Below the pieces are notes generated by a model, which saw nothing but the letters and a program-made list of their open reading frames with translations, was not told the origin of the DNA and made no database searches. The translations under genes were made by a program, and so were the position numbers. Shown here one piece after another: positions 1,312 to 57,000 of a stretch of DNA of 64,000 nt. Each line of letters starts with the position of its first letter. Position 1 is the stretch's first letter. The stretch is taken from assembly GCA_017506865.1 (NCBI GenBank), contig JAFCMP010000223.1, forward strand, positions 1,364,001 to 1,428,000. The letters run 5' to 3'. The DNA is from Tribonema minus. Its lineage: Eukaryota > Sar > Xanthophyceae > Tribonematales > Tribonemataceae.

Positions 1312-1375
1312 AGCAGCAGCGCTCAGCGCCGACAGATCTGGCTGATGTCGCGCACAATGTGGTCTCCGAAAAGAA
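1312..1375 (-). repeat. Echo of the last p25-alpha exon, stop codon included
   Basis: Read on the minus strand this repeats the last codons of the gene at 1425-1475: GDHIVRDISQICRR followed by TGA. The codon for the residue after ISQI differs synonymously (TGT against TGC) and the next one as well (CGG against AGA). It lies downstream of the functional stop, so it is probably untranslated unless alternative splicing reaches it. Confidence 0.75.
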
Positions 1376-1424
1376 AATACCCACACGACAGCGCTCAACA
1401 CCAAGCGTCCCTCAGCAGCAGTGC

Positions 1425-6183: not shown

Positions 6184-6217
<34 letters not shown>

Positions 6218-7247: not shown

Positions 7248-7285
7248 GGTGTGTACTGTCTGTCGTTGACGTTTGTGCTGCTTGG

Positions 7286-7340
<55 letters not shown>

Positions 7341-8493: not shown

Positions 8494-11400
8494 TCACATG
8501 AAGCTCCGCAACGGGCGCTGCTGCGGCCGCGGCCGCTGCTGCTGCTGCTGCTGCTGCTGCTCCTGCCGCGCATCCGCCGCTGCTGCTGCCGCCACGGGCT
8601 CAGCCCCCTTTGCCTGCCCCCCCCCCTCCGCCCCCTCCTCCGCAGCGCCGCGCGCCGACGACGCCTGCGATACGCGCAGCGCGTCACGCCGCACGCCTTT
8701 TGCTGCAGCCGCAGCAGCAACCGCGGCGGCATGCGCGCCGCCGCCGCCGCTGCCGCCGGCGGCGCGCGCGCGCAGCGCCCGCGGGTCAAAGAACGACACA
8801 TTGCTCAGCGACTGGTCCACTTCGCAGCCCGGCTTGTCTTCCATGGCGCGCCCGACAATTTTGGCGGGAACGCCGGCGGCGGTGGTGTGTGCGGGGAGCG
8901 ACATGAGGACGACGCTGCCGGCCGCGATTTTGCCTGCGGAGCATTGCCACGGCGGGTGCGGAGCGCTGTGGATGAGTGCGTGTGAGGGATGGCCCTTGCG
9001 GAGCCACTTGAGTCAAGAGCGGTGAATGTGCTGTACGCAATGTATGTGATGGCGTATGGGATGTCGCCTGCAGAGCCGCTTTAGTCAAGAGAGGCGAATA
9101 CGCTCAAGGCCATGTACGTTGACACTGCGCATTGGCGCGCGAGCGATTGACGCTTGTACCTTACCTCACTGCTGATTAGCATGTTGGCAGCATGCTGCAT
9201 GTGATTGCTTCACAACTAGTTTAGGTTTAGGCTAGTAATTCCCTACATGACAAAGTTAATATTTTTGTAGCAGTTGACATCATGCCCCAACAGACTGATC
9301 CCTGGTACTTCTGTTTGTCAGTGCAGTCCAGCAAGGCAGCCCACGAGATTGCAGTTGAACTCGCAAACATTAATTCAAGAGCGACTCCTACTTCAACACT
9401 TCTGCTTCCCAACATGCACAGGTGCGTGAATGGACTGCAGTTGCGCTACAGCCTAACAATTATTAAAACAAATGCTTTGATCTGTGAGTATGAGCTGTAA
9501 TGTAACCCCAATGTCGTTTTCAGGAGATGAGCAACAAAGGAGTTCAACATCAAACTTCAAATTCAACTTCAATCCGTGTGCGCCACCTCTCACTCACATC
9601 CATCGCCTATCCGTATGTTCCCCAGAATGAGCGCCCCCGCCCCTATCAGAATGCCGCAGCCCAGCTTAGGGTGTCTGTCGCCACGGTCCTTGCCGGTGCC
9701 GCCAAGCGTAACGCCGTGCAGGATGGTGCAGTCATCGCCGATGACAGCCGTTTCGCCAAACACCACACCTGTGTCGCGCCGCGAAAAGCACAAATAGTGG
9801 CCACGTCAGTCAGTGCTTGGATGCATACGATGATGTGAAACTTGTCAGGAAAGCGCAGTCACATCACACCGGTGCTCAGAAGTGCGTGCTGATAAAAATT
9901 GTATTTACTTCAACAGTACATCCCTGACCCTCTGGTTCCACCTGCAATCAGCGACAAGGCAGACGTGAAAGAAGTACTTGCAGTAGGATGAGATGCCGGG
10001 CACTGACGCATGACGTCACGCTAGTGTCCGCTCCTCACCTTTTTATATCAGCATGTATGCATCCCAGCGGTCAATGCCTCATGTGACATGGTGCATTAGT
10101 CGCTGGGCATCTGTAAGAAAACTTCAGTATTGGAGAATACTTCAACGTTGAAGTATGAGGCGTTGAGCGCCAGCGACTGCTCGTGTCGCTAATGACTGCA
10201 CCTACTGCATTTACAAGAAAATGAGTGCATTGCGCATGAGGCACAGCGCGTGTGGTGCCACTTGAAAAGCATGCAACTAACGGGCTAGTTTGCAACAATG
10301 CTCAACACCGGGTCGTGTCACCACTTTGATTCGTTGAGCATCACCCCACGGCCGATGCGACTTGCCGAGTGAGCTTCACACTTGAAGTTCATAGCGCCTT
10401 TCTCATGGCCACATCCACTGTGACCTCTTGAAGCATGAATCATGCCTACAGCGCGACTACTTTTACCTCCTCAAACGTAAATTGCCAAGTATCATGACTC
10501 ACCAGTAGCATGGTCAATCATGACGCGCCGCGGCTGGTGCGCCACTACCAGCTGAACTCCAACATTGAACTTTTGAAGTGCCTCTCTTGCACATCATCCT
10601 ACACTGACCTGTGCAACCACAACGCCATGTACCATGCCCGCTCACTGCACTGTCGACTCCTCAAAAGTATACTGCAAAGTGTCATGACTCACCAGTAGCA
10701 TGGTCGATCATGACGCCGCGGCCGATGCGACACGCAGGGTGTATGTCCATGCCAAAAATCTCGCTCACGCGCGACTGTATTGCCAGCGCCAGCGAACGCC
10801 GCTTCCGCAGCCACAATTCATGCGCCACGCGACTCGCCTGCAGCCCTAGGTAGCCCTGAATTAGGGTTAGAGACAAGGTCAGGGTGAGGGGGGCAGGGTC
10901 AAATGCAGGTTTCATTGACCCTGAGCCCTTTGCGGTTTGCGCGTGCAGCCTTGGCCATGCCCAGAGGGTCAGTGATGATGCATGATGCCATACAATGATT
11001 GGCCGTACACATCTGTGATCGTCTTGCCAAAACGAGACTGGATGGTCATCGCTCACATTATTCACACCAGCACGCCCCCATCTATGTGACTTTCATAGAT
11101 AAAGCAGTTGTGTGACATGATGGCAATGATGCGCTAGATAGGCGATGATATACCATACCATAGGTAACCCGGTTCGCGGTCAGGATCAGGGTAGCGGTCA
11201 GCGAAAGGATGTGGTTCTCTATACCATGTATCACATAGCTTGCCTGCAGCCCCCACGTAGCAGGCACATTCACCAGCGCCAGCACTGAGCATTGGGCATG
11301 TGTGAACTTCAAGCATTTGCTTCACACCAACCTCACCAAGTACATGAATATGCTGAGAGCCGCTAGGCAAGTTCCTACACCGATGTTAGGTGTTGATAAT

Positions 11401-13940
11401 GATGCTCATTACACGCAATCAGCCCTCCAAACAAGCCTCTTGTTGCACTAACTAGTGAAGTGAGGCTGCTCAGTGCTGCAGAAGGTATACCGACGGTAGG
11501 CAGCACATCTGGCATACATGCCCCCCGCCCCCGCACGCGAGGCCACTCGTCATCATTGTCTGCAAGTCTGCGCGCGTTTCCCCAGCCGTTGCCTCTGAGT
11601 AGACACAGGCGCAGACGCTGCCAAACGTGCGGCAGAATGCGCTTACCATACATACCTCGGAGAGATAGATTCTGCTGCCCAGTGCGCGACAATGGACAGA
11701 CAATTGTATGTGGGGTGAATTTCACTGCCAACACCAGCGTACATATTACCATGCTCACCTGTGAATTTCATTCTACTGCCGTGTAAGTGTTGACAGACCT
11801 CAGTGTATGTATGCAAACAATTTTTGAGGTGTGAGCAGATGCACGTTCACAGCTGGCTGGAGGTATGTGTATGCAGAACAGGATACTACCACATTGAAGA
11901 ACTACCTATATACGTTGTAGTTGAGCAGTGCTGCGCCACATGCAGGGTAGCGCGTCACGATCGCCTTCAGGTCCACCGCAGCGCATGTCATATAGATGCG
12001 TGTGTTCAGAAGTCCGCATTGGAGTTTCAGTAATGTATAGGACCACCTATATGCATTGTAAAGGAGCAGTGCGTGCGCCGCGCCTTGCGCACATGAATGC
12101 ATGTCATGATTGTCTCCAGGTCCACTACAGCTTTTGTATGCCATATAGAAGTAGATGCCTGTGATTATGTATGCACGTATGTGTCATGTATAGGACTGCC
12201 TGCATACCTTGTAGTTGAGCAGCGCCGCGCACGCGGGCCCTCGCACCCGTGATAGCGCGTCATGATGTGAAAGTCCACGTCAGCACATGTACGTATTCAT
12301 ATACGCATACATATACTATACATACCTTGAAGTTGAGCAGCGCATGCGCGGCGCCCTCGCACGCGGGGTTGCGCATCATGATCCGTTACAAGTCAGTGTT
12401 AACGCATGTCTGCATATGAATCATATTATATATACATATACCGTGTATACATACCTTGTAGTTGAGCAACGCGTGCGCAGCGCCCTCGCACGCGGGGTCG
12501 CGCGTCATGATCGCCTGCAGGCCCGCGCGCATGAGCATGTAGGTATGTATACGCGCATACATATGCTATACATACCTTGTAGTTGAGCAGCGCGTGCGCG
12601 GCGCCCTCGCACGCGGGGTCGCGCGTCATAATCGCCTGCAGGTCCGCGCGCATGAGCTCCACCAGCTTCCCTCCGCACGGCTCCCGCAGCACCCCTTCCA
12701 GCAGCTTGTACCACTCCCCTGACCCCACGCTATCGTTGGCGAGCTTGTTGGAGAGATGGTGCACTAGTGCGCAGTCCAGCGAATCGTACTGCAGGATGGT
12801 GTTGCGGTAGTAGCGCCGCAGCGCAGGCTCCTCCGCCGCCATGTCCTGAACCTCGCCGCACATGCGCCGCCATCTGCATGGGGGGAGTCACAAGTTGAAG
12901 ATTGGGCGTCGTTACTTTCAACGCCTGGCGCTAATGCCTTGTCTTGCCCCTCGCCGCACAAGCGCCACAATCAGCACAAGTCGCCATTGAAAGTTTTTGA
13001 AGGTGCAGTTGAGGTGTTCCTACGGGCTCTGCAGCCGTGTGTCTCCCACTCCTCGCTAGTGACAATTATTGAAAGCAGCAAGCCTTCTTTGTTGAGCAGC
13101 TGGCTGCCGCGCTCGGACAAGTACCGTTTGCAATTTTTTTGAAGTATCTGTGCAACTTGCGGCAGCATGCAGTTTCATCGGCAGTGCGCGCAGATTCACC
13201 CCGATTTCTTGCAGCAAAATGCATCTCTGTGAAGGCAGTGCGCAGAAGGCAGTGCTCTGCGCCTGAGGCTGCCAGAACAAAAAAACTGCCTGCAAATTTG
13301 AACATTGACTTACTCCAGGAAGAATCTTCAGACGTGTAATGAAGCTACGACACCCAGCACAGCCCTCTCAATGGTCATTGCTGAGAGGACAGTGCAAGAA
13401 AGGCAACATCGACTCGAATCACGCTGCATAAAATGTCAGCCTGCGTGTGCTTTTCCCGCAGATGTTGACATACTCCCTGCTGGGACGTTTGGCACGGTCT
13501 AATCATGCTTAGCAAGAAATTCTAACTGTTGTCCAACCAAACAAGCGAAAATTTCGAACTGGCAATCTTGCAAAACGTAGTGTAGCAAGGCTGCTGCTTC
13601 CGGTAGCATTGGTGTGGAGTGTTACAAAGAACGAAACCCTTGTTGGACAAGAAGAGCTTCCGAGTAAGCAATGCGGCATGCGCGGTATGGAGACAGGGTT
13701 GCACAATTCATTACGCTTTGCGCGCACACGTCATTCGTGTTGATTGCGCTTCGAGCAGGGCACAAGCCCTAACGGGAGACGGTTCTACATGCATGACGGA
13801 GTTCTGCGCAACAGTTTCGAGGGATGCTAAACGACAGAACAGAACAGCACACAAGTGCGTAGAGGCCTCGCAACTCACAATGGGTCATCCGCTGTGTCGT
13901 TGCGAAGGGCGAAGATGCCAGTGGGCCCAGCGTTCACCAT
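8494..13940 (-). CDS. SAT: Serine O-acetyltransferase
   Basis: Exons are 13940-13879, 12873-12576, 10855-10693, 9768-9598 and 8933-8494 (1134 nt, 377 aa); all phases join. The enzyme acetylates L-serine with acetyl-CoA, the committed step of cysteine synthesis. The N-terminal helical domain is in exon 2 ([20 protein letters not shown]), followed by [20 protein letters not shown] and [14 protein letters not shown]. The left-handed beta-helix core has [35 protein letters not shown] and [16 protein letters not shown]. The family's active-site Asp-His (DHATG) and second His (GDRHP) are present. After [12 protein letters not shown] comes an atypical tail of about 110 residues rich in Ala, Gly and Gln. 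The ATG at 13940 is the first in its frame and gives [20 protein letters not shown] with no obvious transit peptide, so a cytosolic location is possible. The tail might instead hide an unrecognised intron. Confidence 0.92.
10500..10560 (-). repeat. Echo of SAT exon 3 end
   Basis: CATGACTCACCAGTAGCATG followed by GTCAATCATGACG on the plus strand repeats the functional exon 3 donor region at 10684-10718 (donor GTGAGT). It lies inside the following intron. A weaker third trace is near 10325-10355. Confidence 0.75.
11905..12575 (-). repeat. Five-copy echo array of SAT exon 2 end
   Basis: The functional exon 2 ends at 12576 with GCGCTGCTCAACTACAAG then GTATGT. The same block with its donor recurs in the following intron, with the plus-strand CATACC at 12450, 12321 and 12203 and decayed versions near 12046 and 11905. 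Spacing is about 121, 129, 118, 157 and 141 bp. The 12450 copy keeps the codons for [20 protein letters not shown] with only synonymous changes across that stretch (ATT to ATC, GCC to GCT, CTG to TTG). Decay increases with distance from the exon. Confidence 0.9.
12925..12968 (-). repeat. Echo of SAT exon 2 start
   Basis: On the minus strand TGGCGCTTGTGCGGCGAGG recalls the functional exon 2 start TGGCGGCGCATGTGCGGCGA at 12872. The reading frame ([12 protein letters not shown]) resembles the functional [13 protein letters not shown], but the acceptor AG has been lost. Confidence 0.7.
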
Positions 13941-14230: not shown

Positions 14231-16338
14231 ATGAGGCGATGCATGCTGGCTGGCGTTCTTTTAACGGCAGCATTAGATGTCCTGTCGGCACTCCATGCGG
14301 GGCTGCCTCGGGTCCGCCTGGCACGGTCGTCAACTCCTGTAATGATCCAGGCGTCAGCAGATGCTGACTCGAGCAGCATCACGGCCTGCGGGATGGACCG
14401 GCGGCAGCTGCTGGCTGTCTTACTCGCACAGACCCTTGTTATACTGCCACTTGCACAGGCCAGAGCTGAGAGCTCTCCAAGTGTGGCCAGCTTGGTGGCG
14501 CAGTTGCCGCCTCTGGCACGTGGCAACAAACGAATCTTCCTGTGCCGGCATGGAGGTAAGCACTGGTTTGAAATCAGACGTCCGAATGGTCGCAACTTTC
14601 GCATATCGCAGCTACAAACTGCAGCCCTATGCAGCAGATGCGGAGCCGGCACAAGCAAACTATTCCAAAAGTGCTCATGAAACACACAATTCTGAATTAA
14701 GCACTTCAGCAAGATACACGCATGACTCACATAACTCTTGACCTCTGCACCATCCCACCGCCGCACCCCACCCGCCAAATCCCAGAAACCCGCTTCAACG
14801 CGCAGCACATCGTCCAGGGCCGCCGCCTCGACCCAGACCTGGACTCTACCGGCACGAGTCAGGCAGCAGCGCTCGGCGCCGCCCTCTCCCGCGTCCCCCT
14901 CGTCGCCGTCTACAGCAGCCCCCTGCTGCGCGCGCGCGTCACCGCGGACGCCATCGCGGCGCGCCAGGCAGCGCCGTCGCCGCGCCTTGTCAGCGATGCG
15001 CTGAACGAGGTTGACTTTGGGGAGGTGGATGGGGTGCGGCAGGACGTCGGCGCGGCGCTGCTGGCGCGCGTGTACGTGGCGTGGGCGGCGGGCGCGGAGG
15101 GCGTGCGCGCGGGCCGCAGCGGCGAGAGCCTCGCGGAGGTCAGTGTGTGCATGGGGCTTGTTCAAACCTAGCCTGGAAGTTGAAGTTGATGATTGCAGCT
15201 AAGCGCCGCATGAGGGGCGAGAGCAAAGATCAGGACAACAGTGGCAGGCGCGGAGGGCGTGCGCGCGGGCCGCAGCGGCGAGAGCCTCGCGGAGGTCAGC
15301 GCGTGCGCGGAGGCTGTTCGTAGCTAGCCTGGAAGTTGAAGTTGATGATCGCAGGCAATTTGGCTAAGCGTCGCGAGCAGCGCGAGGGCAAAGATCAGGA
15401 TGACGACGGCATGCTGTGCACGACGTTGATGACAGTCGTCTCGCGTGCGCACCTGCTGTTTTCCAACCGGTGTCCGTGCCATCGTGACACCTTCAGCTCC
15501 ACCCCCATGTCCTGCTCAGTGCCAGCTCATGACCTGGGATTTCACATTGATGATTGCAGCCGTTGCTTCAGCATCGCATCTAGAGGGGGCCAGGATAAGA
15601 TGGAATGCTGCACATATGGGGTAGGGTTAGGGTTAGGGTTACCTAATCCTAAAACAGACAAGTGTGAACCACAGCGGCGAGAGCCTCGCGGAGTCAGTCT
15701 GTGTGGATTAACTTTAAGTGATGCAACGACAACAGTCGTCATGCATGCGGCCCTGCTGTATAGCGCCATTCGCGCTGGTGGTGGTCAACTCCACGTCATC
15801 CTTCAACAAATGTTTCTTTATAATCAAGCGAGTCAGTGCTCAGCCGCCGATGCGCCTCGCGTCGCTCCACTGATCACCTCCGATCTCCTTTGTGACCACG
15901 TGCGTACAGGTGCACGCACGCGCTGACGGAGCGCTGGCGCAGCTACTCTCTGCAGCATCGATCAGCAGCAGTCTAGATAACTTCAACTACAGCATCCACA
16001 GTGACGCCCTCAGCTCCCCTCTCACCAACACCAGCACCAGCAGCGGCAGCATCGCTACACTCGCCAGCAGCGTCAGCTACACTGGCAGCAGCGGCGGCAA
16101 CAGCGGCGGCAGCATCAGCGACAGCAGCGGCGGCGGCGGCAGCGCAGTCGCCGCCGTCTCGCACAGCTCCATGATCAAGGCGACGCTGTCACGTGTGCTG
16201 CGTGCGCCGCTAGAGCGCGTGCGCGCACTGGGGCAGGACAACTGCGGTGTCAACGTGCTCGACTGGGACGCCACGACAGGCGTGGTGACGGCCATAGCGA
16301 TCAATAGTCGCCCGCTTCCGCCGGGCTGGCGCGGCTAG
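14231..16338 (+). CDS. Phosphoglycerate-mutase-like histidine phosphatase, lumen-type leader
   Basis: Exons are 14231-14555, 14786-15138 and 15910-16338 (368 aa, TAG stop); phases join. The catalytic RHGETRFN spans the first junction, with the phospho-accepting His at about residue 107. AVYSSPLLRARVTADAI and EVDFGEVDG are typical of the family, and the second catalytic His is in AVSHSSMIKATL. The leader starts with the hydrophobic MRRCMLAGVLLTAALDVLSA, followed by a Ser/Arg/Ala region, then MDRRQLLAVLLAQTLVILPL ending in AQARA. That is a twin-arginine, hydrophobic core and A-x-A layout. In a secondary-plastid alga it would send the protein through the ER and plastid into the thylakoid lumen (inference). 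Between the two His motifs lies a Ser/Gly/Thr-rich insert of about 55 residues. The substrate cannot be told; the family includes phosphatases as well as mutases. Confidence 0.88.
15245..15302 (+). repeat. Echo of PGM exon 2 end
   Basis: The block GAGGGCGTGCGCGCGGGCCG through CTCGCGGAG plus donor GTCAG repeats the functional exon 2 end at 15097-15142 with no change in the coding part. A shorter copy (AGCGGCGAGAGCCTCGCGGA) is at 15664-15690 with a damaged donor. The flanks (GGAAGTTGAAGTTGATGAT) are duplicated too, near 15176 and 15332. Confidence 0.85.
15614..15642 (+). repeat. Short TTAGGG run
   Basis: Three to four TTAGGG units inside intron 2 of the PGM-like gene. Confidence 0.75.
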
Positions 16339-18747: not shown

Positions 18748-21700
18748 TCACGCTGACCCCAGCTCGCCGTACGACACGCGCTTCATGAGGTGCCGGTGTC
18801 CACGATCTCTGGCACCAAGATCGCGAGCCACGCGTATAAGGTCGGCAAAGAGCGCTGCTGCGATGGCGCGCGGCCCCCCCACGGGCCCCCGCAAGATGAG
18901 CGGTGCTGCCTCTGTCATGCGCTCCGTTGTGTAACTGTCGGGGTGCAGAAAGGGGGGAAGGGGGGGAGGGGGGGGGGGGGGCACGAGTCGAGGGTCAGAA
19001 TTGTCGGCGATGGAGGCACAGCATGCGCATCAGCACAGCATTGGGCACTTGAATGAGTTGCAAATGGCGTTCACGTTGATAACCTAACCCTGACCCTGGC
19101 TATAACCCTAAATGCGGCCATGGCCTTGCGCACACGCACGCACGCCTGCGGACTCATGCTGCTAATCGGTACAAGTACAACTTAGCCTCGCTCGCACGAC
19201 GACGGACCTTGCAAAGGACTCTAACCCTACGCCTCGGTTGCACGGTGACGGACTTTGCAGAGGACTCTAACCCTAGGCCTCAGTACTTGAAACCCTAGCC
19301 TTAAACTGGCAGCATCTTCATGATTGTACGCCTCTTGTCAATATGCCCAGCCCACGGCTCAGCGATGACCACAGCCTCACCCTAGTATGGTGTGCTCGTG
19401 ATGATGTCAAACTACCATGACACACGCGCGCTCACCCGACAACACGTGCAGCTTGCTGTCAAGCGACATGTGAGCTGCTCGTCGTTTGCCGCCAACGCTC
19501 ACAGCCCGAGACACAGCAAGCCTAACCCTAACCCTAACCCTAACCCTTGCGACAACGCAACCGCAAACAAGCGCGCGCGAGAGCACCCACCGAACGCAGT
19601 ACGAAGCCCCCTCAAGCCTCGCCAGCGGATCTTTCAGCGGGACCTCCACCAAGCCCGCCTTGGCCTCCCCTGTGCGCGCATCGGCGGAGGCGACGTAGCG
19701 CAGCACAGCGCCGTGAGCGTGCGCGCGCGCCGCCGCCGCAGCGAAATCCGCGTCGCGCGCGCGCAGCAGCGCCAGCAGCGCCGGCGGCAGCGCGTTGCCC
19801 TCCAGCAGCTGCATCGCGCCGCCGCTGCCGCCGCCGCCGCTGTCGTCGCCGTCTTCGCTGCCTGCGCCGCCTGTTGTGTGGATTGGCGTTTGGCGCAATG
19901 GTTGTTCGTGAGAATGGTCGTCCGTGAGTGAAGGTGAAGTGCGGCTCTCGCAATGGTGGTGACGAGCAGCAATCATTAGGAGGGGTAGGGGTAGGGTAAA
20001 GTGTGCAGTGGGCCAAGCAGGGCTCAGCCTTGGGGTACCACCATCGCTGGCTGTGGCAGTATGCCCTAACCTAACGCTAACCCTAGGCTTTAGCTGACCG
20101 TACCTCACACCATCCTTTGATGTGAAAACCTTCAGGCTGGTGGCTTCTGCTTTATTACCAGGCGATGAAATCACCGGCACATCAAATGGCTGCTGCTGCA
20201 ACTGTAAACAAGGTTGGTTTCTACCTGACCCGCCACCTCTGCTTGGTAAAACGCTTGAGAAACACTCACTAAAGGTGCACCGATGACTTCATCAGTTTCA
20301 ACTTGAACGTTTTCACCCAACATCATCGCCCAACGTAACGGCTGGCTCGACCGCCAAGTCACTCGCTTCCAGCTCCATACCCAGTTCCTGTCCCAGGATA
20401 AGCAGCCGCCACGACACAATCAACTTCAACTACAAGTTCAACTGTTTCACCCACCATCATCGCCGAGCGTAACGGCTGGCTCAACCGCCAAGTCACTCGC
20501 TTCCAGTTCCATACCCAGTTCTCGTCCCAGGATGAGCAACCGCCGTGACACGTCAGCACACGCCAGCTGCTGCATGGGGTCACGAGTGTCGAGAAGGCCT
20601 TCGGCAGCTGCCATCGCGCATGCCTGTTCATGAGCGGGGGGGTGGGGGGGGGGGGGGGGTAGCTAAGTTGAAGTAGGAAGTTGAAGCCAGTGGGCAGGTG
20701 CGTATTTTGAGACCCGTAGGCGCACTACTGCTGCGGCAGACGCAAGGGACTTCAGTCGTCGCAGCCGCGCCTGCCTGGCAGCGCAAGAGGGCGCATGCAA
20801 AGCGGACGCGTCGTCAAGGCACGGCAGTGCCCACCCCCCACGTGCTGCGGGAGCATGACCTGGTTGCCTGTTAGGCATTTTAGAGGGGCAGCAGCGGCAC
20901 AACAGTGCTGTGCAGCAATGAAATTGAATGCGCCGCTGCAATTATCGGCAGCGGCGCCGCCGCCACAGCGTCCGCTGTTAACCCTAACTCTAGCCGTAGC
21001 TCTATGCTGCTGCCGCCGCCCCATGCCCTGGTGAAATATCGCATTCAGGACGCGGCTGACGAACGCGCGCGCCATTGACACGATCAACGTAATGTTAGGA
21101 GCGTCACATCCCCTCAAACATCACCACTCTGCTGAGCATCACCGCGGCCGCATGCATCTCCAGGAACAGCGGCAGCGGCGCCACACTATCCTCTTTCGCT
21201 TCCGCTGCCGCCGCCGCCCCCGCGTGCCCCGGCGAAATCGCATTGAGAACGTGGCTGAGGAACGCGCCGATGACACCATCAATGTGGTGCGGAGCGTCAC
21301 ATCCCCTCAGACATCACACTGAGCATCATCGCAAACGGACGCACCTCCGAAAACAGCGGCAGCGGCGCCGCCGCCGCCGCGCCCCCCTCTTCCGCCGCCG
21401 CGTGCCCCGGCGAGATCGCGTTGAGGACGCGGCTGAGGAACGCGCCGATGACGCCGTCGACGCGGTGCGGAGCGTCACCCGTTGACTGCAGCGATTGAAG
21501 TGTGAGCAGCACGGGCAGGCCGCCGCCGATGGTCGTCTCGTACTGGTACGAGTTGCTGGTGCGGCGGCGCTGGTCGAGGAGCGCGTGGTAGGCCGCGAGG
21601 CCCGCGCCCATGGCGCGCGAGTTGTTGGAGACGACGTGCGTGCCGGCGGCGAGCCAGGCGATGTGGCGCGCCGCGACGGCGCGCGACGGCGTGCAGTCGA

Positions 21701-42970: not shown

Positions 42971-45900
42971 ATGGCCGCAGGAGCGCAATGGGATGGCAAC
43001 AGCATGACCCAGGACGAGATGATGATCAAGGATCAGGTGATCGTCCTCGACGATGACGACAACATCATAGGGCAGGGAAGCAAGTGGGAAACCCATAGAT
43101 TTGTACCTGGCCAGCCCCGAGGCATCCTGCACCGAGCCTTCTCTGTGTTCCTGTTCAACGGGGAGGGCAAGCTGCTGCTGCAGCAGAGGGCAGCGGAGAA
43201 GATCACTTTTCCAAATGTCTGGACCAACACCTGTTGCAGCCACCCGCTCACTGGCTTTACACCAACAGAAGTGGACAGGCCGGAGGATCTGGCTGACGGG
43301 AGCGTGATGGGGGTTAAGCGAGCTGCGGTGAGGAAGCTGGATCACGAGCTGGGGATACCGGCGGAGGCGGTGCCGCTGTCGGCGTTCAAGTTCTTGACGC
43401 GACTGCATTATTATGCTGCGGACATTGTTACTCATGGCAAGCACAGGTGAGAAAGTCAGCAAGTGCATTATTTTTTCATGTGGGGGGCTCTGCCGCCTTT
43501 GCGTGCCATTTAAGCGACGAGAGATGTGATTACAGCAGTGCTCATCGCCTGGACAAGCAGACCATTCAAAGCAACGTTGCATAAATGCTTGGCAAAGCAA
43601 ATGAAGCAAGTGGCTGTTGCGCCATGCAGCGCCAGCTCTCGTGTGGTTGTCCCCGCGCATGGCTGGTGTCAAGCTGATGAAGCAAGGAGGTTGAATCTTC
43701 GCTCAAACGCCTTCTGCTGTGCTGGGCTACTAGGCCCTCACATGTAGTCAAGTACAGTGCACTCACTTAGGGTTGGGGCGAGTGCTACGGTTATAGAGTT
43801 GTGCAGGAGATGCAGGTGTGCACCTGTAGGTACGCAGGTTGAATGACCGCAACAAGTCAGTCAGCACGCAGTGCGCATCTATGACAGCAGCTGCCTTCCT
43901 TCATTGTGAAAGTGCATGCAGCGGTGCAGCTATGAATATGCGAGAAGATGGTCATGTGCGTTGCATGTCTTGGGCATAAACAATACAGTACTGGTACGTG
44001 GCAAAACACATTAATAAACGGCATTTGCTTGCAAGAATTTAAGCAGCAGCTGCTGCTGCCGCCGCTGCTGCTGCTGGTGTTGCTGCTGGTACCAACGCTG
44101 ATGCTGCTGCTGCCACTGCTGATGCTGATGCTGCTGCCGCTGCTGCTGCTGAACGCCCGCAGCCCGTGGGGAGAGCACGAGATCGACTACATCCTGTTCA
44201 TCCAATTAAGCGCGGAACCCGCCATGAAAGCGAACCCCGAGGAAGTCAGCGACACGCGCTGGGTATCCGCAGAGGAGCTGGTGGCGATGATGAAGGAGCC
44301 GGGACTGCTGTGGTCGCCGTGGTTCCGGATCATTGCTGAGCGCTGGCTGCTGCCGCTGTGGTGGAAGGACCTGGGGGCAACGCTCAGCACGGACGTGCAC
44401 GTGGACACAAAGCAGATCAACAGGTACGCGTGGAGCTTTGTGTGCAGCGGGAGTGTCACTTTAATGAGGCGTTGAACTTGAAGACCGTGGCAGTTTTCGG
44501 ATGCTCAGCACAGATCAGCATCTGGGCACAAGGCAGATGCACACGTTATGATGGTTCAGGTGACGGTCACGGCATTTTTGGAGGCAGGTCCTGAGCATTT
44601 TGTCTTTTTCACAATCTGCTAACACATTGTGCACACCTTCACGTAAGGCTGCTCAGCACTTCAAATGCATACTGCAAATGTGAAGTCATGCTTGTGCTGT
44701 CACCAGTGCTTGTGCGCCAACTTGATGACCGCCCCATCACTCGCCAGTGCTACTGTAAGCCGCACTTCGCAGGGGGGATGGGGCATCATGTGCCAGTGCT
44801 AACTGATGCAAGCCACACTTCTCTTGGGGGGGGGGGAGGGCGGGCTTGGAAAGTTGGAAATTTGCAATTTATGGGCTTTTGAGGTTGCATTGGCAAAAAC
44901 GTTGCAGCACTTCAGCAAAAGTTCAGCTTGCTGAATTTCATTGTTGTCTGTGCTTGTTGCCACAGGTTTGACCCCCCGCCGGAGCACAGGGGCGGCGCAG
45001 GCGTGTGCGGTCTGCGCGATGAGAAGGACGCTTCGAGCTCAAAAAAGAAGCAGGTACAGTGAATAAATGGAGAGGGCTAGCATGCACTGCTTCAATTGTT
45101 TATGATGTTGCAAGTTTTGGCGGTAGTTGTCTTGTTCCTACAAGTTTTGGCGGTGGCTGTGGCGCCATCAAATGCCATTGCGGCAGCACCAGCTGCCTGG
45201 GACCTGACAGCCAGACGCAGCAGCAGCAGCATCAGCGCTCAGGTGCAGCAGCAGCAGCAGTGCTCAGCAGCAGCAACCTCGCGCTCTCTGGGGGCCGCAA
45301 TTCGTGCAATGAGGCAGGCAGAACTGACGCCCCAGCACCTGTGCAAGTATCGCCTGCAGCGGCAGCAGCAGCGGCAGCGGCGGCGGCGGCAGCGGCGGCA
45401 GCAGCAGCGGCAGCGGCGGCGGCGGAAGCGACGGCGGCGGCGGCAGCGGCAGTGGCGGCATTGGCACCGCCATTGCATGCATGTGGCCACAGTGTGGTGC
45501 GCCCGTGTGTGCTGGTGCACCTGCTGCTACGGCGGCGGCTGCTGCTGCAATGCGGTGGCGAGCAAACGGAATGGAAGCCATTGCGATGCCGCTCTGACTA
45601 CTGCCGCAGGGCGCGGATGAGAAGTGGTCCTAGCTCAAGCACAACTTCACCCCCATTCATCAACACCATGAGCTGAACGAACCTCTGAGCCATTGCGCTC
45701 TGGCTGAGTGTTGCTGCAGGGGCCTTACGAAAAGCCCCCCCCCTGACGCTCTAAACACAATTCCAAACAAACCCTTGAATCTGAATTGCAGCGATGCTGC
45801 TCTGCCCGATTCGCGGCTGCAGGGGGCGTACGGAAAAGTGCCCGTCTTTGAGGAGTCGAAGCTGCGGCAGCTGGCACGTGTGGACGAAGTGTTTATGGCG

Positions 45901-48900
45901 CTGGCATATAAAGCGGGGTACGGGGGGGGCGCGAGCAACGTGAAGATAGGGGCGGACCTGGGGGGGCACAGGGCGTTCTGCGATGACATGCTGGGGCGCG
46001 TGAGCCGCTCTTTCGCGGCAGTGATCAGGCAGCTGCCCCCTCAGGTACATACGTACCCCCCCATCGCTGCCAGTATGTACAGCAACTTTACGTAGAATTA
46101 CATGGCGTTCGGGGGCCGCGTAGCCGCTCGTTCGCGGCAGTGATCAGGCAGCTGCCACCTCAGGTACATACATACCTCCCATCGCTGCCACTCGGCAAAT
46201 GGTGAAATGCTGTTAAGTTTGGCATTGTCCTTCGAGTATTTGACAAGTATATGATGTGCTGGGGCGTGCAAACTGCTAGTTTGCGGCAGTGACCAGGCAG
46301 CTGCCGCCGCAGGTGTGTGTATGCATGCATGTAGAACATGCCCACCTCTGCTAATGTTTTCATGGTTGCATTTGTGACATTTGAATGTAATAAACTCCAA
46401 AGAAACAAGATATGGTGGGGCGCGTGAGCGTCTCGTGCGTGGCAGTGATCGGCAGTGACCGCTGCAGGTACAAACATACCCCCCATTGCTGCCAGTTGGC
46501 TGGGGTCTCATGCATGTATGACAGCAATTTTGCGTAGAAGTATATGGCATGCAGGGACCTGGTGAACCGCTCATTCGCGGCAGTGATCAGGCAGCTGCCG
46601 CCGCAGACACCTACATGCCTGCGTACCACTGCCACTTTGGCAAATGCAGAAATGCTGTATTCTTGACATTACGCCTCAAGTTTACGACTTGACCGGGTGT
46701 GCGCAGCTCATTTGCGGCGGCGCTCAACTGGCAGCTGCCGTTTGGGGTCAGCATTGCGTTAGGGTGAAGACGAGGGTGAAGGTCAGGCTCACCTGCGCAC
46801 GTATGAACAACTCACCACCCCTTGACTCTGTGACTCTATGACTGGCGCTGTGACTCAATGACTCGCTCGCCCTCGCAGCTCTGCATTGTATGTACTGGTC
46901 ACTCCATCATGCTGCGCCCCCCTGGACACCTTTGAGGCCCAGATGACAGCCCCCCCCCCCCCCCCCCCCCCGTCTCCCCATAAGCATGGCCATATAACTA
47001 CACAACACGCGTACGATGTGACACAGCACAAAAACACAGTTCACCTCGCCCACACACAAACATGCATCTCTCGTGCCTCTGCAGCTCTGTATGGACGTCC
47101 TGGTCTTCTACCTAGTGCTTCGCGCCTTGGACACCGTCGAAGACGACATGACGGCATTCGGCTCCCCGGAAGACAAAATACACTGCCTGCGCGCATTCCA
47201 CGCGACGGTCCTCGTGGGCCTCACGCAGAACCTGGGGAGTGGCGGGGGCAAGCAGGGGCGTGCATCGGTGGATAAGTTCCTGACGGCGAATGGGATGGTG
47301 GGGGTGGGGGAGGGGGACGAGAGGGCCCTGCTGGAGCAGTTCATGCGCGTGACACAGGTGTGATATACGTGCGCATACCTTCTCGTATGTTGTCACATTG
47401 ACCATTGCACTAATGCATCGGTCGTATATGACCTTTGGCAAGTTACCATCATCATATCCATGTTATTCCAGTAGTCTGTGGTCTAGTTCCTTGACGGAAC
47501 ATGCAATGGTGGGGGCGGGGAAGGGGGGCAAGAGGACCCTGATGGAGCACTTGACGCGCGTTATGCAGGTGCATTGGTCATTTGCATACTTTCCACTGTA
47601 ATCGCATTGGCCAGTGCGCTGCATTGGTCATATATCGTATTCAGCAAGTTGCCGTATAAATGAGAGGCGTCACTTAGATTCAGGGCATGTTAAGTGCAAG
47701 TTGAAGATGTAGCATGGCAAATTCAAACACCTGCAGTCAGGCTTGGCAGGTCTAGACACTTGGGGGGGGGGGGGGGGGGGGGGGTCAGCTTGCAGATTGT
47801 TCCCAAAGCACTGCTTGCAAAGTATCATCAAAGCACTGTACTGCAAGACCACGGTAGAGAGCTCAGCGACAATGCTGCTCTTGGCGTGGGCTTTTGGATC
47901 CTGACTGTGATGGGTAGGAAGCAGCTGACGTCCGCACATACACTCTCTGATCTATCACTTCCAACAAAATTAATGTATACTGTGATGCATGGACGCCCTT
48001 ATCAAGCCTGTGTATCCATGTACTACTACCATCATCATACATTCTTCAGGGCCTTTATCGCTGCACACAAGCTGTGGCCCAACTCTCTGGTCTCGTTCTC
48101 CACCTCTCGCCCCCCCCCCCCATTAACAGTTAGAAGTATATGGAAGCTTGAACGTGTACCATTATTCGCGAGATCACGCGCAACATGGGAGTACCTTTCA
48201 TCACTATCATACACACATCTAGTGCTAGACTCCAAGCTTGTTGTACCGCTAACCCGAAGCTTCTGCGTTGCTTTCTGCACCTCTCTGTCCTCCCTAATTA
48301 ACAGGTATATGGAAGCTTGAATTCTGGATCGCGCACCGTGATTCGCGAAATCACGCGAGACATGGGAGCCGGTATGGCTGAATTTGTGTCCAAGGACCTG
48401 GGTCAAGGCACAGCAACACTGGAGGAGTACAATTTGTACTGCCACTATGTGGCGGGACTGGTGGGACAGGGGCTCAGCCGCCTGTTTGCAGTTACACAGG
48501 TGAACACCCAGTATGAAGCAATTGTAAACGTGGCCAATGACTGCAGCAGCGGCGACCACGGTCAATTGGTGGAAGGCACTTGCGGCTAACCATCCTTTGT
48601 CACCTAGAGCTCTACGATCTTTTGATTCGTTTCCATAAACAGTGACACGGCCATAATGATATGGGACAGGGCTCTGCAACACGAGAGGAGTACAATTTGT
48701 ACTGCCACTTTGTCGCTGGCCTGATGGGACAGGGGCTCAGCCGCCTTTTTGCTGTGACACAGGTGAAGTTGCTGAAGGAAACTTGTTGCAAACAGTTACA
48801 GAACCGTTACAGTATGGGGGCAGGGCACCAAAAACAACACCAGAGGAGTACAAAGCGTAGTGCCAGCAGGTGAAGTTTATGAAGGAAATGTGTTACAAAC

Positions 48901-51900
48901 AGTTACGTAACTGGTACAGCACCGTACTCACCCAATCTGTGGCTGGGCTGGTGGGACTTGCGGTGAGCCGCCTGTTTGGCGGGACACAGGGTTTGAACGA
49001 CTGTTGCAAAGCAGTTACATCTGGGAATAAACGCTGTCACGTTGGCTGACGTGACGACAATGCGAGTTGGAGGGGGAATGCTGCTTGCATAGTTGCGATG
49101 GTCATGACACAAGTTGAGCGTGAGCACCCTCTGAGGCGGTGTCAATGCATTGCGCAATTTGCATCCATGAGAACATGATGCATATATTCAGATCTCTATT
49201 TTTTGTTTGCCTTTTTGAACGTTGGTTGTTTTTAGGAAGCATTCATCTTATCAGCAGCCCTAAACAAATGCAACGCGGACCGCGAGTGATACTGGCCATG
49301 TGCCATTCCGTCACAAATGCTTTCACTGCCCAGCTTGAGCTCTCATTTGAGGTGTGGTGAGTCACTGCGTTCAAGTTCCAGGCTGGAGACGCCCGGCAAT
49401 TGGGTCCCTTGCAGTTGACGCCGTCAGGCGATTGCATTTTGCACACGCGCTCTTCACACATCATCTCCCCACCCCCCCCCAAGTGTTGTTGAAGTATGGT
49501 CGTTCACTTCTTGAAGTTGATGTGTGTCATGTGACGCTCCAGGTGGAGCTGCCCGGCATCGCGTCGCGCATGGACCTGGCCAACAGCATGGGCCTCTTCC
49601 TTCAGAAGACAAACATCATCCGCGATTACCTGGAAGACTACGTGGATGGGCGCGCATTCTGGCCAGCCGAGGTATGTAGGTATAGTAGTGTCAGAGTTGA
49701 GTGGCAATGGCCAAGCTATGTATGTAGCGTCAGAGTAGTGGCAAAGTTGAAGACCAAGGTATGTAGGCCAGCCGAGGTATGTAGTGTCAGCGGTGTATGT
49801 GCCGTCGAGCAAGGTTGAAAACATTTTCTGAAGAAAACGAAGGCACCATGAAAGTCTTTCAGTTCAAAGGTATGTATGTAGCGTCAGATTTCAAGGCCAA
49901 GTTGTATGCCAGCCGAGGTATGTAGGTACAGCAGTGTCAGAGTTGAGTGGCTAAGGTATGTACGATGTAGCGCCAGATCTCCTAGATAAGTGTCAGAGTT
50001 GAAGGCCAAGGTATGTTTTCCAGCCGAGTTGTTCTCGGCTGAGGGAAAAGTGTAGCACCAGCGTTGTGCGCGCTGTCGCACAAGTGTTAAAGCGCTTGAG
50101 AAGGAGGCATGAAAGGAAGTCCACTAATTTCAGCAAGGAGAAAATTGCTACTGTGACCTACTCCGGGAATGCTGATTTCAACAATCAGGCATATCCTGTA
50201 CAGACAGCGCGAGCGTACCCGCTGCGCGCCTGGCGAGCACCGGGCTCTGTTGATTCCGTGTAGACGTGTACGCCATAATATGTATACAAGGAAACGAATC
50301 AAAAGTTCGCAGAGCTCTAGGTGACAAAGTGTGGTTAGCCACAAGTGCCTTCCACACATAACCGTGGTCGCCGCTGCTGCAGCCATTGGCCACGAGTCAA
50401 ACAGTGCCACCATATCCACAGTAGTCAAAGACTTCTGTGGGCAAGCTCTTTATGTATGTTTGCGGAGACATTCCTCAGCTTCATGCGGTGCACTGTTGAC
50501 CATTTTTGCCGGCTGTCCTAAAAGGAACACTTCAGGAAGCGTGATTCCACTGCTACATGTTGAAGGCTGCTGAACGCTCAACCTCCACCAGAACATTCGG
50601 TCTGTATCTTGCGGTGCATCTGGACGTAGTGCGCTGAGCCATGCCCTACCCAGGGTATGTATATGTAGGTATGTATAGTATGCCTTACACAAGCTATGCA
50701 GGCATGTGGCATGCCCTGCCCCACATACCCAAGGTATGTAGGTATAAGACATGCCCAACAGGGATTTGAATCATTCGACCCTGCAACAGCAGCGCTCCAC
50801 TGCGGTTTTTTAAACTCCAGCAGCCCTCAACCATACATATCTTGCACCGTTAGCTCTCTACGCACCCTGTGATTGATCAGGTGTGGGAGAAGCACGCCGT
50901 AATCACAGCGCTGCTGCAGTAAAAGCGCAAGTCCATGCAGTGCTGGCTGCATGTTAGCAACACTCAAGTACAGTCAGCGCTCAACTTTGAAGCCCCCCTC
51001 CCCCCCTCTCTCCACGCACCCCGTGCTCAGGTGTGGAAAAAGCACGCCGTAAAAACAGGGCTACTGGGCAAACTCGCGCTGCCTCACTGTATCACGATCA
51101 CATGACAACATGACGACATCATTGTGTATTCAACTGCACGTCAGCAACGCTCAACCTTCAAGCCCCCTTCCTTCCTCTTCCTCTCTCTACGCGCCCTGTG
51201 ATCGATCAGGTGTGGAAGAAGCACGCCATGAAGACAGGGCTGCTGGGCGAACTCGCGCTGCCGTACTGTGTCACGATCACATGACAACATGACGACATCA
51301 CGATGTATTAACCGGCATCAACTGTGCGACAGCAGCACTCCACTGTGACTCTTGTACTTCAACAGCCCTGAACCATGAAACCCCACCTCTCTCTTTCTCT
51401 ACGCACCCCGTGTTCAGGTGTGGAAGAAGCACGCCGTAAAGACGGGCCTGCTCGGCGAACTTGCGCTGCCACACTGCATCCTAACCAACTGACAACATGA
51501 CGACAACATTGAGTATCCAAGCGCCACTTACTGCACGGCAGCAGTGCTCAACTTCGAACCCCCCGCGCGCCCTGTGATCGATCAGGTGTGGAAGAAGCAC
51601 GCCGTAAAGACGGGCCTGCTTGGCGAACTCGCACTGCCGCAGAATGCGCGTGCCGCGCGCGCGTGCCTCAACGAGCTCGTAACTGACGCGCTGGAGCTCA
51701 TCCCCGACTGCCTGGAGTACATGGACCAGGTTCTGGATGACGGGGTCTTCAAGTTCTGCGCGATACCACAGGTAACTTCAAGTTGAAGTTGCACCGCTTG
51801 CGTGAGCGTGGCGCCGTGCGCCTTACAGCTATTGCATGATGTTCACAACTATACTCCGAAGTACATATGAAGTGCTTGTTATGCAGAAGTGCGGACATAC

Positions 51901-52759: not shown

Positions 52760-54098
52760 GCGGCGGCGACTGCGGCTGCTGCGGCGGCGTCAACAACGGC
52801 GGTGGCGGCAGCAGCAGCGGCAGCAGCGGCGGTGGCGGTGGTGGCGGCAATGGTGGTGGCAGCAGCAATGGTTGCGGCGGCAGCAGCGTCGGCAGCAATC
52901 GGCAGTGGCGATGACGATGCCACCGTCGGTGGCGGCGGCGGCAGCGGCGACGATGATGCCAGCAGCGGCGGCGGCGGAGGCAGTGACGGCAGTAGCAGCA
53001 GCTGCAGCGGCAGCGGCGGTTGCGGCGGTGATGGCGGCAGTGGCTGTGGTGGCAGCGGCTGCTGCGGCAATTTGAGTTTTGGTAGCTAGAGCGGCGGTGT
53101 CGTGTCCACTTTGAAGTTGTTGGGGGTATGCTTGGCTGCAGGGTGTGTGTGGGGGGGGGTATTGTGTGGCGCGGGGTAGCTATGGGGGGTTACTGAGGCA
53201 TGCTTCTATTGGGCATTTACGCAGGGGGGCCTGCCGTGTGGTGTCCGGCGTATCCGCAAGCATTGGTTAGGATCGATTGCACCAAGCGTCGTCCAACTCG
53301 ATTAATCCCATTACGTTTCCCCGACTTGCACTCTCGCTTCCCTCGTTGATGCTCATAGTTGTGCCCACACTGGGCTCTATGTTGCGGGTACTCTAGATAT
53401 TGGATGGCTGCATTCTCACAATGTGAAGAAGGGCCCACGAGTAGCATCCTGGTCCTCCAGTTGGCTCATTGGCTGATATGTGGCTGCATGCAACTCCGGG
53501 CCTGGCTAACCCTAACTCTAACCCTACGTGCTGACAAGAGTCTCACGCTAGCGCGGTCACGATGCTTCACTTCCCGCAATAGCCATTGACACAAGTGTTC
53601 CAGTGGTTCCGTACCTCAAACGGAAGTCAATCATGTGCTCGAGCAAAAATGCAAACGATCGACCATAGCGCAGCTCCCTCCTGCCTGGCCCGCTTTTATG
53701 GCGGTGGCACAAGCGGAGACATAGAGACAGTGCAATATCAGGCGTTGCTGTGCAAGACTAAAGAGCATGCATGTGCGCCCCGCTCCAGCGGCAGCGCTGG
53801 CGGAAGGCGCTGCCGCATTGCGCAGCGGCGGCGGCGACGGCGGCAGCTGCTGCTGCTGCAACAGCGACCAGCGTTGCACAAAGTTTGTGCAAATGCATCC
53901 TGTCACATGCCAGGCGTGCCAGAGATGCATGCTCCGGCTTGTTGTCTGGTGTGTATCAGCATGCTGCACAAGCGCTTGGACAAATGACATCTACTGTTGA
54001 TGCTGTTGACAGCCCCGTTTAGATCAAAGAGCGCACAAACACCAGCAACAAAAACAACAGCTCACGTGACGCATTCAAACCAGCTTCTCAGAATGGCT
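52760..54098. other. Convergent intergenic region with GGC-rich tract
   Basis: Lies between the stops of IDI-SQS (+) and the EF-hand-like gene (-). Positions 52760-53085 are a GGC/CAG/GGT triplet tract that leaves long Ala or Gly frames without homology, probably 3' untranslated sequence. A second small tract is at 53790-53870. Nothing else is recognisable. Confidence 0.5.
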
Positions 54099-57000
54099 TT
54101 AGTTCATTGGGCTTCGAGGCGCCGAGCGCTGCCACGGCACCTCTGCAGCAGCGCTCCGAACCTTGCCGTCCGCGCACGCCGCCGCCGCCTCACCACCTAT
54201 TTGCCTCCCCTCAGGCAAATCGTCACGACCATACGCGCCAGCTTTCGGCGGTTGAAGGCCATACATACCATCTCTGTCCGACCCGTCCCACGCATCGCCG
54301 ACGCCGTTGCACGCAAATGCCTCATCATATGATGCGCACAGTGGCGCCGCCGCCGCTGCAGCGTGGCGGCCGCTGGCGTGGCTGCTGCGCGCGCTGCCGG
54401 GGCTCGCGTCACCGCTTGAACTTTCATCGTTGAAGTTGACGCCGGCTGCGTCGCCGAAGTCGATGTCGTCGTCGGCGTCTTCCGCGACGGTTGCGTCGTT
54501 GTTGTTGTTGAGCGCTTCCCCAGGGGGGGCGCGGCACGGCATCGACTTGGCGCGTTCAGGGAGGCAGCTCTCCTGGTGGTGAAGCGAGAGGGCAGCACAG
54601 AGCGGTGTGGACTGTGTTAGAGCTTTATGTTGATGTTGAAGTGATGGGGTGTGGCGCGCTCTGAAAAACAGCCAACAGTTGCATCGACTTGGCGCGTGCA
54701 GAGGCAGCTCTCCTGGGGCAGCGTGGAGAGGTTGGGACTGTGTGTGAGCACTTCAAACAGATGTTGAAGTGCTGCTGCTGTCGGCAGCAGTGTGCGTGAC
54801 TTGGGCGACAGCAGCATGGCTGAGGGACGGTGTGAGTTGTGCCATGCAACTTGAATGGACTTGCTGAAAGAGGTGCCCACGTGAGTGGTGTTGGTAAGCA
54901 TGCAACTTGAATAGAGATGTGGAAAGAGGTACTGACACGAGTGGTGTTGGTGAGCATCAGCGGTGATGAAGCGCGGCCCACACATGCAGACTTCACGATT
55001 GAATGTCTGTTGCAAGCACACTGCTGCCTAGCCGCAAACTCTTCATGGTCATGCTCAGATGAGACATGCCTCACAATGGCTCATCCAATGTACAGCACGG
55101 CTTGTGACTCACTGCCGTGACTCATGACTCATGCACTTCATGGCGATGAGTCACTGTCAGACTCACCATGTGTTCGTACTCGTCGTCCCTGCTTTTGAGA
55201 TGCACATACTCTTCGTTGCCAGACTCGTGTAGCACGACGTCACCGTTGAACGTTTCCGCCGCTTCAAAGTCGGTTGTCTGGATGGGGTGGGGGGGGGGGA
55301 GGGGACGCCTGTTAAAACAGACTCTCATTATTTGATCAAAGCCTTGAGCAATTTGAATTTAGAGGCTATACCATTCGCGAAGAGGGTCCACGCATCTTCA
55401 TAGCATAATTTTGTTGAATCCCCGTCTGCGCAAACCCAATGTGTCGGAGTACTTTTTTTTCAATTGCCTGGCTGTGCATAAAGGGAAGAAATGACCACTT
55501 TAGTACATGTATTTGAGGGTTGACTGTGAGCAGTTGCGGCCGCGCACTTAACACAGCTTCAAGCGCAAGTCAGCCCAGGTCAGCTCTGCGCTCAGCTCCA
55601 TTGCATTCCTTTCGAGCACAAGCGAGGGAGCTCGGCTGCAAACAGGAAGTGGATTCTTGCTTTGATGAGCCTCTGCGTGGCCCTTTATGGCAGCAGAACA
55701 GTGGCCATATAGGATATTGGTCAAGCAATACCACTAACTCCGCCAGCACATCTTTTTATGCCGGCTACGTTAAGCTATGCCAAGCTGCCATGGTGGCCAG
55801 TTTGCTGACAAGTGTGTGATGGCAATGACCTCCGGAGCCTTCCCATGTTCACCGTAATGCTCTGTGTCGTTTGCGTTTCTAGCCCAGAAGTTAGTGTATA
55901 AAACTAATCTTCAACTGCCATGTTATGACATCGCAAAGTGCAATACAGCTTACTACACACTGCACAGACGTTTCAAGATATGGTTTTGTATGGGATTTCT
56001 ACGCACCACAACGCATTGATGTTTCAAAGCGAAAGAAGTTCTTCAAGCCTGTCAACAAACGTCAATGCAGCCAGCCGGGTACTGTAGTATGTGCCAGTTG
56101 CTGCGTGTACACCTGCATTGGTGCTTGCCGAAACAGCGGATGTCTGTCCTGTGTGTATGGCTACCACACTCGATGGCCATCTTGTCAGGTTGGCTAAACC
56201 AAACCCTAATGCCAACCCTCTCATCCCCGCCCTGGCACTTCTGCCTCAAATTGTGTTGTCCACCTTGTGCGCTTAGGGTTAGGGGTAGGCGATCAGGGTC
56301 AGCTCAACCTCGCCCTACACCTAACCCTAACCCCCCTATCCCGATGCCTCGTGCTAACCTCATACCTATCCCTAACCCTACCCCTTCCTGTCTGTTGGTC
56401 GCTCGCTACCACTGCCCCTAACCCTACTGTAGCCTCATTTGCGTGTGAGTCACACTGGCCCTTGCGGCAGTGTCCTGCAGTTCACCCTGACCCTACCTTC
56501 AACTGTGACTCACCTCGCGGTGCGCAAACTCCCCCGTCTCCCTGCACTCCATGTGCACCACGTTGCTCATGTGCCGCTCCCTCTCCGTGAGCTCCTGCCG
56601 CCGCCCATCCACATCAACCGTCGTGTAGCACACAATCCTCTCCTGGGATGACGCAGATAAAAAGTGAAGACAATTGCGATTTATCATACTTTGAAGTATT
56701 TATAAAAGATGGTCGTACAAAAACAACAAGTACTATCATTGCATGTCAAACATCGACATGGCATATAATACATGTACTTCGAAGTACACATTGTTTGTAC
56801 ATTCTCATGACCAAGTTGCGTAGCTAGACACACCTGCACATGCACAAGGAATACATGAAATCATACCGCCTTTACACTGGTTTGTACCTGAATGATGGTC
56901 TCTGACTTCTGCCAAATAGGGTGTGGCGGCCGCGTGCGCCTGTAACTGTCGCGTAACTGCAAACTAAGAGCGGTCCCCCGGTGCGGCACCATGGCTCCTT

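Follow-up and report, generated by a model that had tools for sequence, protein, structure and literature searches.

In the tandem genomic duplication model of Rogers (1989), the duplication of an exonic AGGT creates a new intron (PMC3443670, PMC4974935). In the potato RdRp gene, a tandem duplication carries a branch site, a pyrimidine tract, a 3' splice site, and exon sequence, and the same gene also contains an 83-bp intronic duplication (PMC4974935). Introners, described in Micromonas, Aureococcus, and Amoebophrya, have spread genome-wide and show inverted and short direct repeats (PMC7789003). All three are taken here as the excerpted text of these papers presents them. This study concerns a 64,000-nucleotide stretch of the Tribonema minus genome (C223:1364001-1428000, from a genome of 158 Mb in 554 contigs), called the window throughout, in which exon ends recur in the introns that adjoin them. 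A worn copy of an exon end beside its splice site, located in the adjoining intron, is termed an echo.

The echo arrays share with the tandem duplication model, as excerpted, a short, local, head-to-tail duplication within a gene, in which splice signals are duplicated; the offsets of 26 junction arrays are 77-340 bp, and some of them may cover more than one unit. Unlike in the model, the unit here already contains a junction, and it is an existing intron that is lengthened. Intron gain by exonic duplication was rejected, as no exon-to-exon repeat flanking an intron was listed for 31 intron regions (200-nt flanks, E 1e-3). The likeness to potato RdRp lies in a tandem duplication that carries intron-exon structure, but the potato case, in the part of that paper considered here, comprises a new intron with inserted exon sequence, whereas in the window serial copies are found at nearly half of the junctions and the modelled exons are unchanged. 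With introners the echoes have in common that repeats shape the introns of a protist; introners, according to the same limited text, are dispersed over many genes, whereas the echoes (two units tested) are local and gene-specific. In the open-licence PMC literature no paper was recognised as describing a serial duplication of junctions that lengthens introns, which is no proof of absence.

Exon ends recur in the adjoining introns

Exon ends in the window recur as copies in the adjoining introns, at both kinds of splice site. When the outermost 40 nt of each exon were compared with the adjacent intron (threshold at 99% of the control, score >25), same-strand echoes were found at 25 of 60 junctions, namely at 14 of 30 5' splice sites and 11 of 30 3' splice sites. 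Antisense matches numbered 3 of 60 (2/30 and 1/30, respectively), and the control with unrelated introns gave 0.4% at 5' and 0% at 3' splice sites. The sensitive search, with 90-nt queries and a score >27, detected 64 echoes at 28 of the 60 junctions, with up to six per junction. A first-pass annotation of this DNA had reported such copies at both ends of exons, with examples in SAT, AK-HSD, the start of TauE exon 10, and IDI-SQS, and every one of these was recovered.

Five of the eight genes in that annotation were modelled by hand (AK-HSD, SAT, PGM-like, TauE, and IDI-SQS), the AK-HSD and SAT models being guided by Escherichia coli ThrA and CysE (tblastn with cysE) and the others by reading. 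The AK-HSD model has 15 exons (35033..18749, minus strand) with a frame open through all of them and no stop. SAT, with four exons modelled, reads without stops, and so does the three-exon PGM-like gene apart from its terminal stop. The TauE model is stop-free only in part, and the nine exons of IDI-SQS, whose introns have GT/AG ends, are joined without a settled reading frame. The squalene synthase assignment is a PDB match of one exon, E8 of IDI-SQS, and the labels PGM-like, IDI, and TauE are presumptive and partly those of the first-pass annotation. Our SAT E1 is exon 2 of that annotation.

The copies are confined to the intron side of the matching boundary, as had been claimed. In the wrong-end test (exons >120 nt in the window and >130 nt elsewhere), no echo was found for 3' exon ends in upstream introns (0/24) or for 5' exon starts in downstream introns (0/25), that is, for 0/49 in the window, and the result was 0/86 on contig C1 at 800-900k (40-nt queries, stricter score >33). 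The signal weakens within ~60-140 nt of the exon boundary: matches remain in 4/138 test segments lying at least 80 nt inward from donor ends and in 4/147 lying at least 60 nt inward from acceptor ends. Tandem whole-exon duplication repeats exon sequence inside a gene; here, unlike in that process, only the intron-adjoining end is copied and the opposite end is not, and whole-exon duplication was rejected. Echoes just beyond the last exon, which had also been proposed, found no support in the five genes: PGM gave a score of 26, one above the threshold, SAT gave only an antisense match with a score of 39, and the other three genes were below the threshold on the same strand.

Compared with itself, the window yields 80 matches less than 6 kb apart, of which 78 are direct and 2 inverted. 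Local direct copies are present in 36% of junction segments versus 30-34% of intron segments (30% deep in introns), and in 31% of exon segments less than 60 nt from an end versus 14% of deeper ones. In unannotated DNA the local copies amount to 5.8% direct versus 4.0% inverted, and inverted copies are at 3-7% across all classes of segments. Since the intron segments are nearly as copy-rich as the junctions, it is the whole introns, and not just their ends, that are rich in repeats.

Anatomy of the copied unit and its locality

The unit is a head-to-tail direct duplication comprising the exon end, the splice site, and the intron flank. The exon part is 11-134 nt long at donors (median 56, 15 arrays) and 19-64 nt at acceptors (median 50, 11 arrays), while the intron part, calculated from the listed offsets, is 37-303 nt. 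Examples of these arrays detected by Tandem Repeats Finder are at 12203-12657, 26161-26669, and 32394-32575. In the six-copy SAT E1 array, the identity of the exon part with rising distance is 0.95, 0.91, 0.89, 0.76, 0.88, and 0.80. An assembly artefact was rejected because the exon parts of the copies diverge by as much as 27%.

Two 81-base exon-end queries (AK-HSD E8 and IDI-SQS E4) had no match in the 158 Mb outside their own exon and intron, in a search that skips very common words. Delivery of the copies by introner-like or other mobile elements is, in our estimate, extremely improbable, given this locality and the direct, head-to-tail arrangement of the copies, although the genome does carry dispersed short elements, such as one of ~106 bp with at least 41 matches. 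The earlier statement that the copies are neither whole-exon duplications nor a transposon thus agrees with the absence of the opposite exon end and with the own-locus matches of the two queries.

The median length is 884 nt for introns that carry echoes (n=22) versus 534 nt for those that lack them (n=8), and the number of echoes follows intron length with a rho of 0.84. This correlation is partly confounded, because longer introns offer more room. The detected direct-repeat copies make up 8,113 of the 26,313 intron bases in the five genes (31%). The earlier claim of a recurrent local copying of junctions that lengthens introns is supported by the controls, the locality, the arrays, the intron lengths, and the phosphoglycerate kinase (PGK) genes described below.

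Neutral wear of the echoes

In the window, the codon-position and shared-change tests were made on SAT, PGM, and AK-HSD, and IDI-SQS was left out for lack of a frame. The differences between exon and echo at codon positions 1, 2, and 3 are 54, 63, and 133, respectively, for ~715 sites each, a pattern by which coding constraint on the echoes was rejected. Changes in the echoes of all genes lean to AT, with 153 G>A and C>T versus 82 A>G and T>C. In the intron flanks of 46 echoes, 414 of the 2177 aligned positions (19%) are different, and there are 222 gap events; this divergence is about twice that at exon codon positions 1 and 2 (117/~1429, ~8%), as is to be expected where both copies of the flank can change freely.

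The splice dinucleotides are retained in 17/24 donor echoes (GT) and 21/26 acceptor echoes (AG). Such retention might be read as a sign that the echoes are kept for a function, for instance as decoy or reserve splice sites, but about this level is expected from neutral decay (~8% per site leaves ~84% retained, by our own estimate). Codon positions 1 and 2 frequently differ from the exon, and the changes are AT-biased; this neutral wear argues against echo function, which we regard as very unlikely.

In 13 of 15 arrays of the window, the echo closest to the exon resembles it more than the remaining, more distant echoes do on average (p=0.01). Changes shared between echoes at codon positions 1 and 2, at 10/290 (3.4%), barely exceed the 8.4 expected by chance, so most of the echoes seem to have been copied from the exon and not from older copies. 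At position 3, where the exon drifts too, 37/273 are shared versus 15.7 by chance. A minisatellite, or tandem array, likewise consists of head-to-tail copies of one unit, but for its copy-from-copy growth the comparison with chance is 10 versus 8.4 in the window and 12 versus 5.0 in the C1 region.

Junction preference

The arrays in 30 introns comprise 18 on the donor side, 11 on the acceptor side, and 3 internal, so that 29 of 32 touch an exon; the count omits the part of TauE that has no complete model, and three of the 18 donor-side arrays (two in AK-HSD intron 2, one in intron 11) are exon-only matches. The location of minisatellites, in contrast, is unrelated to exon boundaries.

These numbers bear on passive survival, in which duplications fall uniformly, those inside exons are purged, and the conserved exon serves as a readable reference for old junction copies. 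The neutral decay of the echoes, the excess of flank divergence over codon positions 1 and 2, and the direct repeats in 30% of deep-intron segments speak for it. Simulations with uniform duplication, conserved exons, and neutral introns, evaluated by the same detection and counting rule, gave junction arrays in 46-65% of cases for four settings and 35-58% for five more, as against 29/32 observed, with P of 5e-5 to 7.5e-11 under five uniform settings. The shared changes also disagree: they amounted to 10% and 18% in the uniform simulations and 6% in a junction-only one, versus 3.4% observed in the window and 5.4% in the C1 region. The distance pattern appeared in 15/23 and 10/17 arrays of the uniform simulations and in 62/87 of the junction-only one. 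The small surplus of direct over inverted copies in unannotated DNA (5.8% versus 4.0%) likewise speaks against passive survival, and we consider it unlikely as the whole explanation.

Alternatively, the duplications may start in exons, for example because these are GC-rich, and those reaching into the intron escape selection. The exons are indeed GC-richer (65% vs 53%), and such an origin would account for the small number of intron-only arrays. Yet echo-bearing exon ends are not significantly GC-richer (0.652 vs 0.626, p=0.23), so GC-rich exon ends were rejected as a trigger, and in 23 of 26 arrays the exon supplies less than half of the offset listed (some offsets maybe spanning more than one unit). 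An origin in exons is, in our estimate, rather doubtful.

Echoes elsewhere in the genome

Other regions were analysed with our own small ab initio gene finder, trained on the window, with predicted exons counted at a content score of at least 15. On C1 at 800-900k, echoes were found at 29 of 92 predicted junctions (90-nt queries, score >30). The 40-nt test (score >33) gave 15/45 donors and 8/47 acceptors, with 1/45 and 0/47 for antisense and 3/225 and 0/235 for the control, and the signal drops to near zero inside the exon. Nearby repeat matches in this region are 82 direct versus 1 inverted, and 19 of 34 repeat clusters lie over a predicted junction (circular-shift null with a mean of 9.2 and a maximum of 17 in 500 shifts). 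In 40 kb of C312 and C551, echoes are present at 2/5 junctions, both at one exon of C312.

Phosphoglycerate kinase loci are found on C3, C13, C113, and C468, of which three were matched in at least seven pieces and that on C3 in three; for C13 and C113, the analysis covers part of each gene. The end of exon 1 has echoes in C13 and C468, and the end of exon 3 in C13; at the start of exon 2, C13 has echoes and C468 a weak match. In 99 informative comparisons, some of them at sites compared with two paralogues, the echo agrees with its own exon in 75, with the paralogue in 11, and with neither in 13. As the echoes resemble their own exon, their origin or conversion postdates the split of the genes.

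Proposed mechanism

The copies are local, direct, on the intron side, and neutrally worn, and they are tied to exon boundaries beyond what a simple uniform model gives. The elementary event resembles an ordinary short tandem duplication. We propose that short tandem duplications across exon-intron junctions have probably recurred and lengthened the introns, and that they are harmless through splicing at the outer boundary. Such a duplication would repeatedly capture a live junction segment, made of the exon end, the splice site, and the intron flank in the sizes given above. Each fresh copy would be placed beside the exon, with the older ones pushed deeper, and in the window the copies would mostly be taken from the live exon. 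By an exon-definition argument, the outermost boundary would stay in use, so that the protein is unchanged while the intron grows, and the duplication would be tolerated because of this; exon-internal duplications would be eliminated by selection. The favouring of junctions may be either mutational or survival-based. A mutational process aimed at junctions, perhaps linked to transcription or splicing, by which the end of the live exon is copied into the intron again and again is a possibility that we put forward only tentatively.

Several points weigh against the proposed duplication at junctions. The samples are small, with five hand-modelled genes, one clearly positive additional 100-kb region, and one negative. 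The simulation settings were our own choice, loosely matched to the data, and, because the flanks are rich in gaps, the simulations may underrate how often internal arrays escape detection. In the C1 region, 15 of the 34 repeat clusters have no predicted junction, the codon-position bias is weak (74/75/89), the echoes share changes above chance at positions 1 and 2 (12 versus 5.0, a fraction of 0.054), and no clear distance gradient is seen, the nearest echo being more similar in just 9/15 arrays; it follows from the last two that copying from copies does occur. The decay with distance stated in the first-pass annotation is accordingly clear in 9 of 10 window arrays that have at least three copies, and is not evident on C1. 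On C223 at 500-600k, echoes are present at 0/32 weakly predicted junctions; that region has a weak coding signal, poorly scoring exons, and a small number of local repeats (19 direct, 0 inverted), with 1 of 11 repeat clusters over a predicted junction (null mean 1.5), and its negative result reflects either biology or poor prediction. The genome-wide extent that had been suggested thus rests on samples, with C1, C312, and PGK in favour and this region against. Moreover, both the independence of the echoes and the paralogue result could stem from gene conversion of echoes by their exon.

Feature coordinates and neighbouring sequences

Table 1. Source exons and echoes in the window.
Feature	Position	Strand	Basis or remark
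SAT exon E1, source of the largest donor-side echo array	12576..12873	-	tblastn with E. coli cysE, model
Six echoes of SAT E1 end, the closest 121 nt away from the donor	11499..12575	-	self-comparison
SAT exon E2, donor-side source	10693..10855	-	tblastn, model
Two echoes of SAT E2 end	10322..10545	-	self-comparison
PGM-like exon 2, donor-side source	14786..15138	+	model; label presumptive
Two echoes of the end of PGM-like exon 2, identity of the exon parts 0.98 and 0.96	15243..15703	+	
AK-HSD E2, source of acceptor-side echoes and donor-side exon matches	32160..32421	-	
Acceptor-side echo array of AK-HSD E2, period ~72	32465..32762	-	
AK-HSD E4, echoes on both sides	30325..30427	-	
Acceptor-side echoes of AK-HSD E4	30546..30865	-	
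Donor-side echoes of AK-HSD E4	29955..30216	-	
AK-HSD E6	28168..28298	-	acceptor-side echo 28363-28409, donor-side echo 27818-27864
AK-HSD E8	26052..26193	-	
Acceptor-side array of AK-HSD E8, four copies, AG retained in 4/4	26229..26669	-	
AK-HSD E9, five echoes per side	24466..24663	-	
Acceptor-side echoes of AK-HSD E9	24760..25292	-	
Donor-side echoes of AK-HSD E9	23626..24404	-	
Acceptor-side echo of AK-HSD E10	23194..23288	-	
Acceptor-side echoes of AK-HSD E11	22225..22535	-	
Acceptor-side echo of AK-HSD E12	21813..21885	-	
Donor-side echoes of AK-HSD E12, exon part the longest of all (134 nt)	21006..21300	-	
Donor-side echo of AK-HSD E13	20299..20417	-	
Acceptor-side echo array of TauE exon 10 (exon 40662-40849)	40287..40568	+	
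IDI-SQS E4, donor-side source	45792..46044	+	model
Five echoes of IDI-SQS E4 end	46113..46750	+	
Donor-side echo of IDI-SQS E5	47485..47653	+	
Acceptor-side echo of IDI-SQS E6	48096..48191	+	
Donor-side echoes of IDI-SQS E6	48662..49019	+	
Copies of IDI-SQS intron 7 start with ~10 nt of E7 end	49766..50028	+	score 22, below the 40-nt threshold
Four acceptor-side echoes of IDI-SQS E8 (exon 51586-51771), AG retained in 4/4	50854..51473	+	PDB match

Two further genes on the minus strand, at 4500-5316 and 6800-7382, are presumably p25-alpha/TPPP-like, judging by their translations, and the first of them seems to have acceptor-side echoes at 4856-5316. A candidate TauE exon at ~36940-37060 contains an in-frame TAG between segments that look conserved; the TAG points either to an overlooked splice boundary or to a disrupted stretch.

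The ~106 bp element is present at 48529-48643, 50290-50394 (inverted), and 51924-52037, all in one gene, and its genome-wide matches (at least 41) are 96-100% identical and in both orientations. It looks like a recent short mobile element. The palindrome ACTTCGAAGT occurs 5 times in the window versus ~0.05 expected, and may possibly be an element end or a binding site. Interstitial TTAGGG/CCTAAC arrays are located at 4150-4201, 19521-19547, and 29640-29672. In the whole genome, 5S rRNA gave 47 scored matches spread over many contigs.

Implications

How introns lengthen where they hold no transposons is poorly understood. The serial copying of junctions suggests a transposon-free route to longer introns, with many duplicated junctions apparently ignored by splicing. 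If a process aimed at junctions were true, the introns would hold dated growth rings, and their lengthening would proceed from the ends and not through transposons. If the pattern is general, each intron would record its own growth against the exon as a slowly changing reference, and the rate of duplication, neutral mutation, and splice-site choice would be measurable within one genome.

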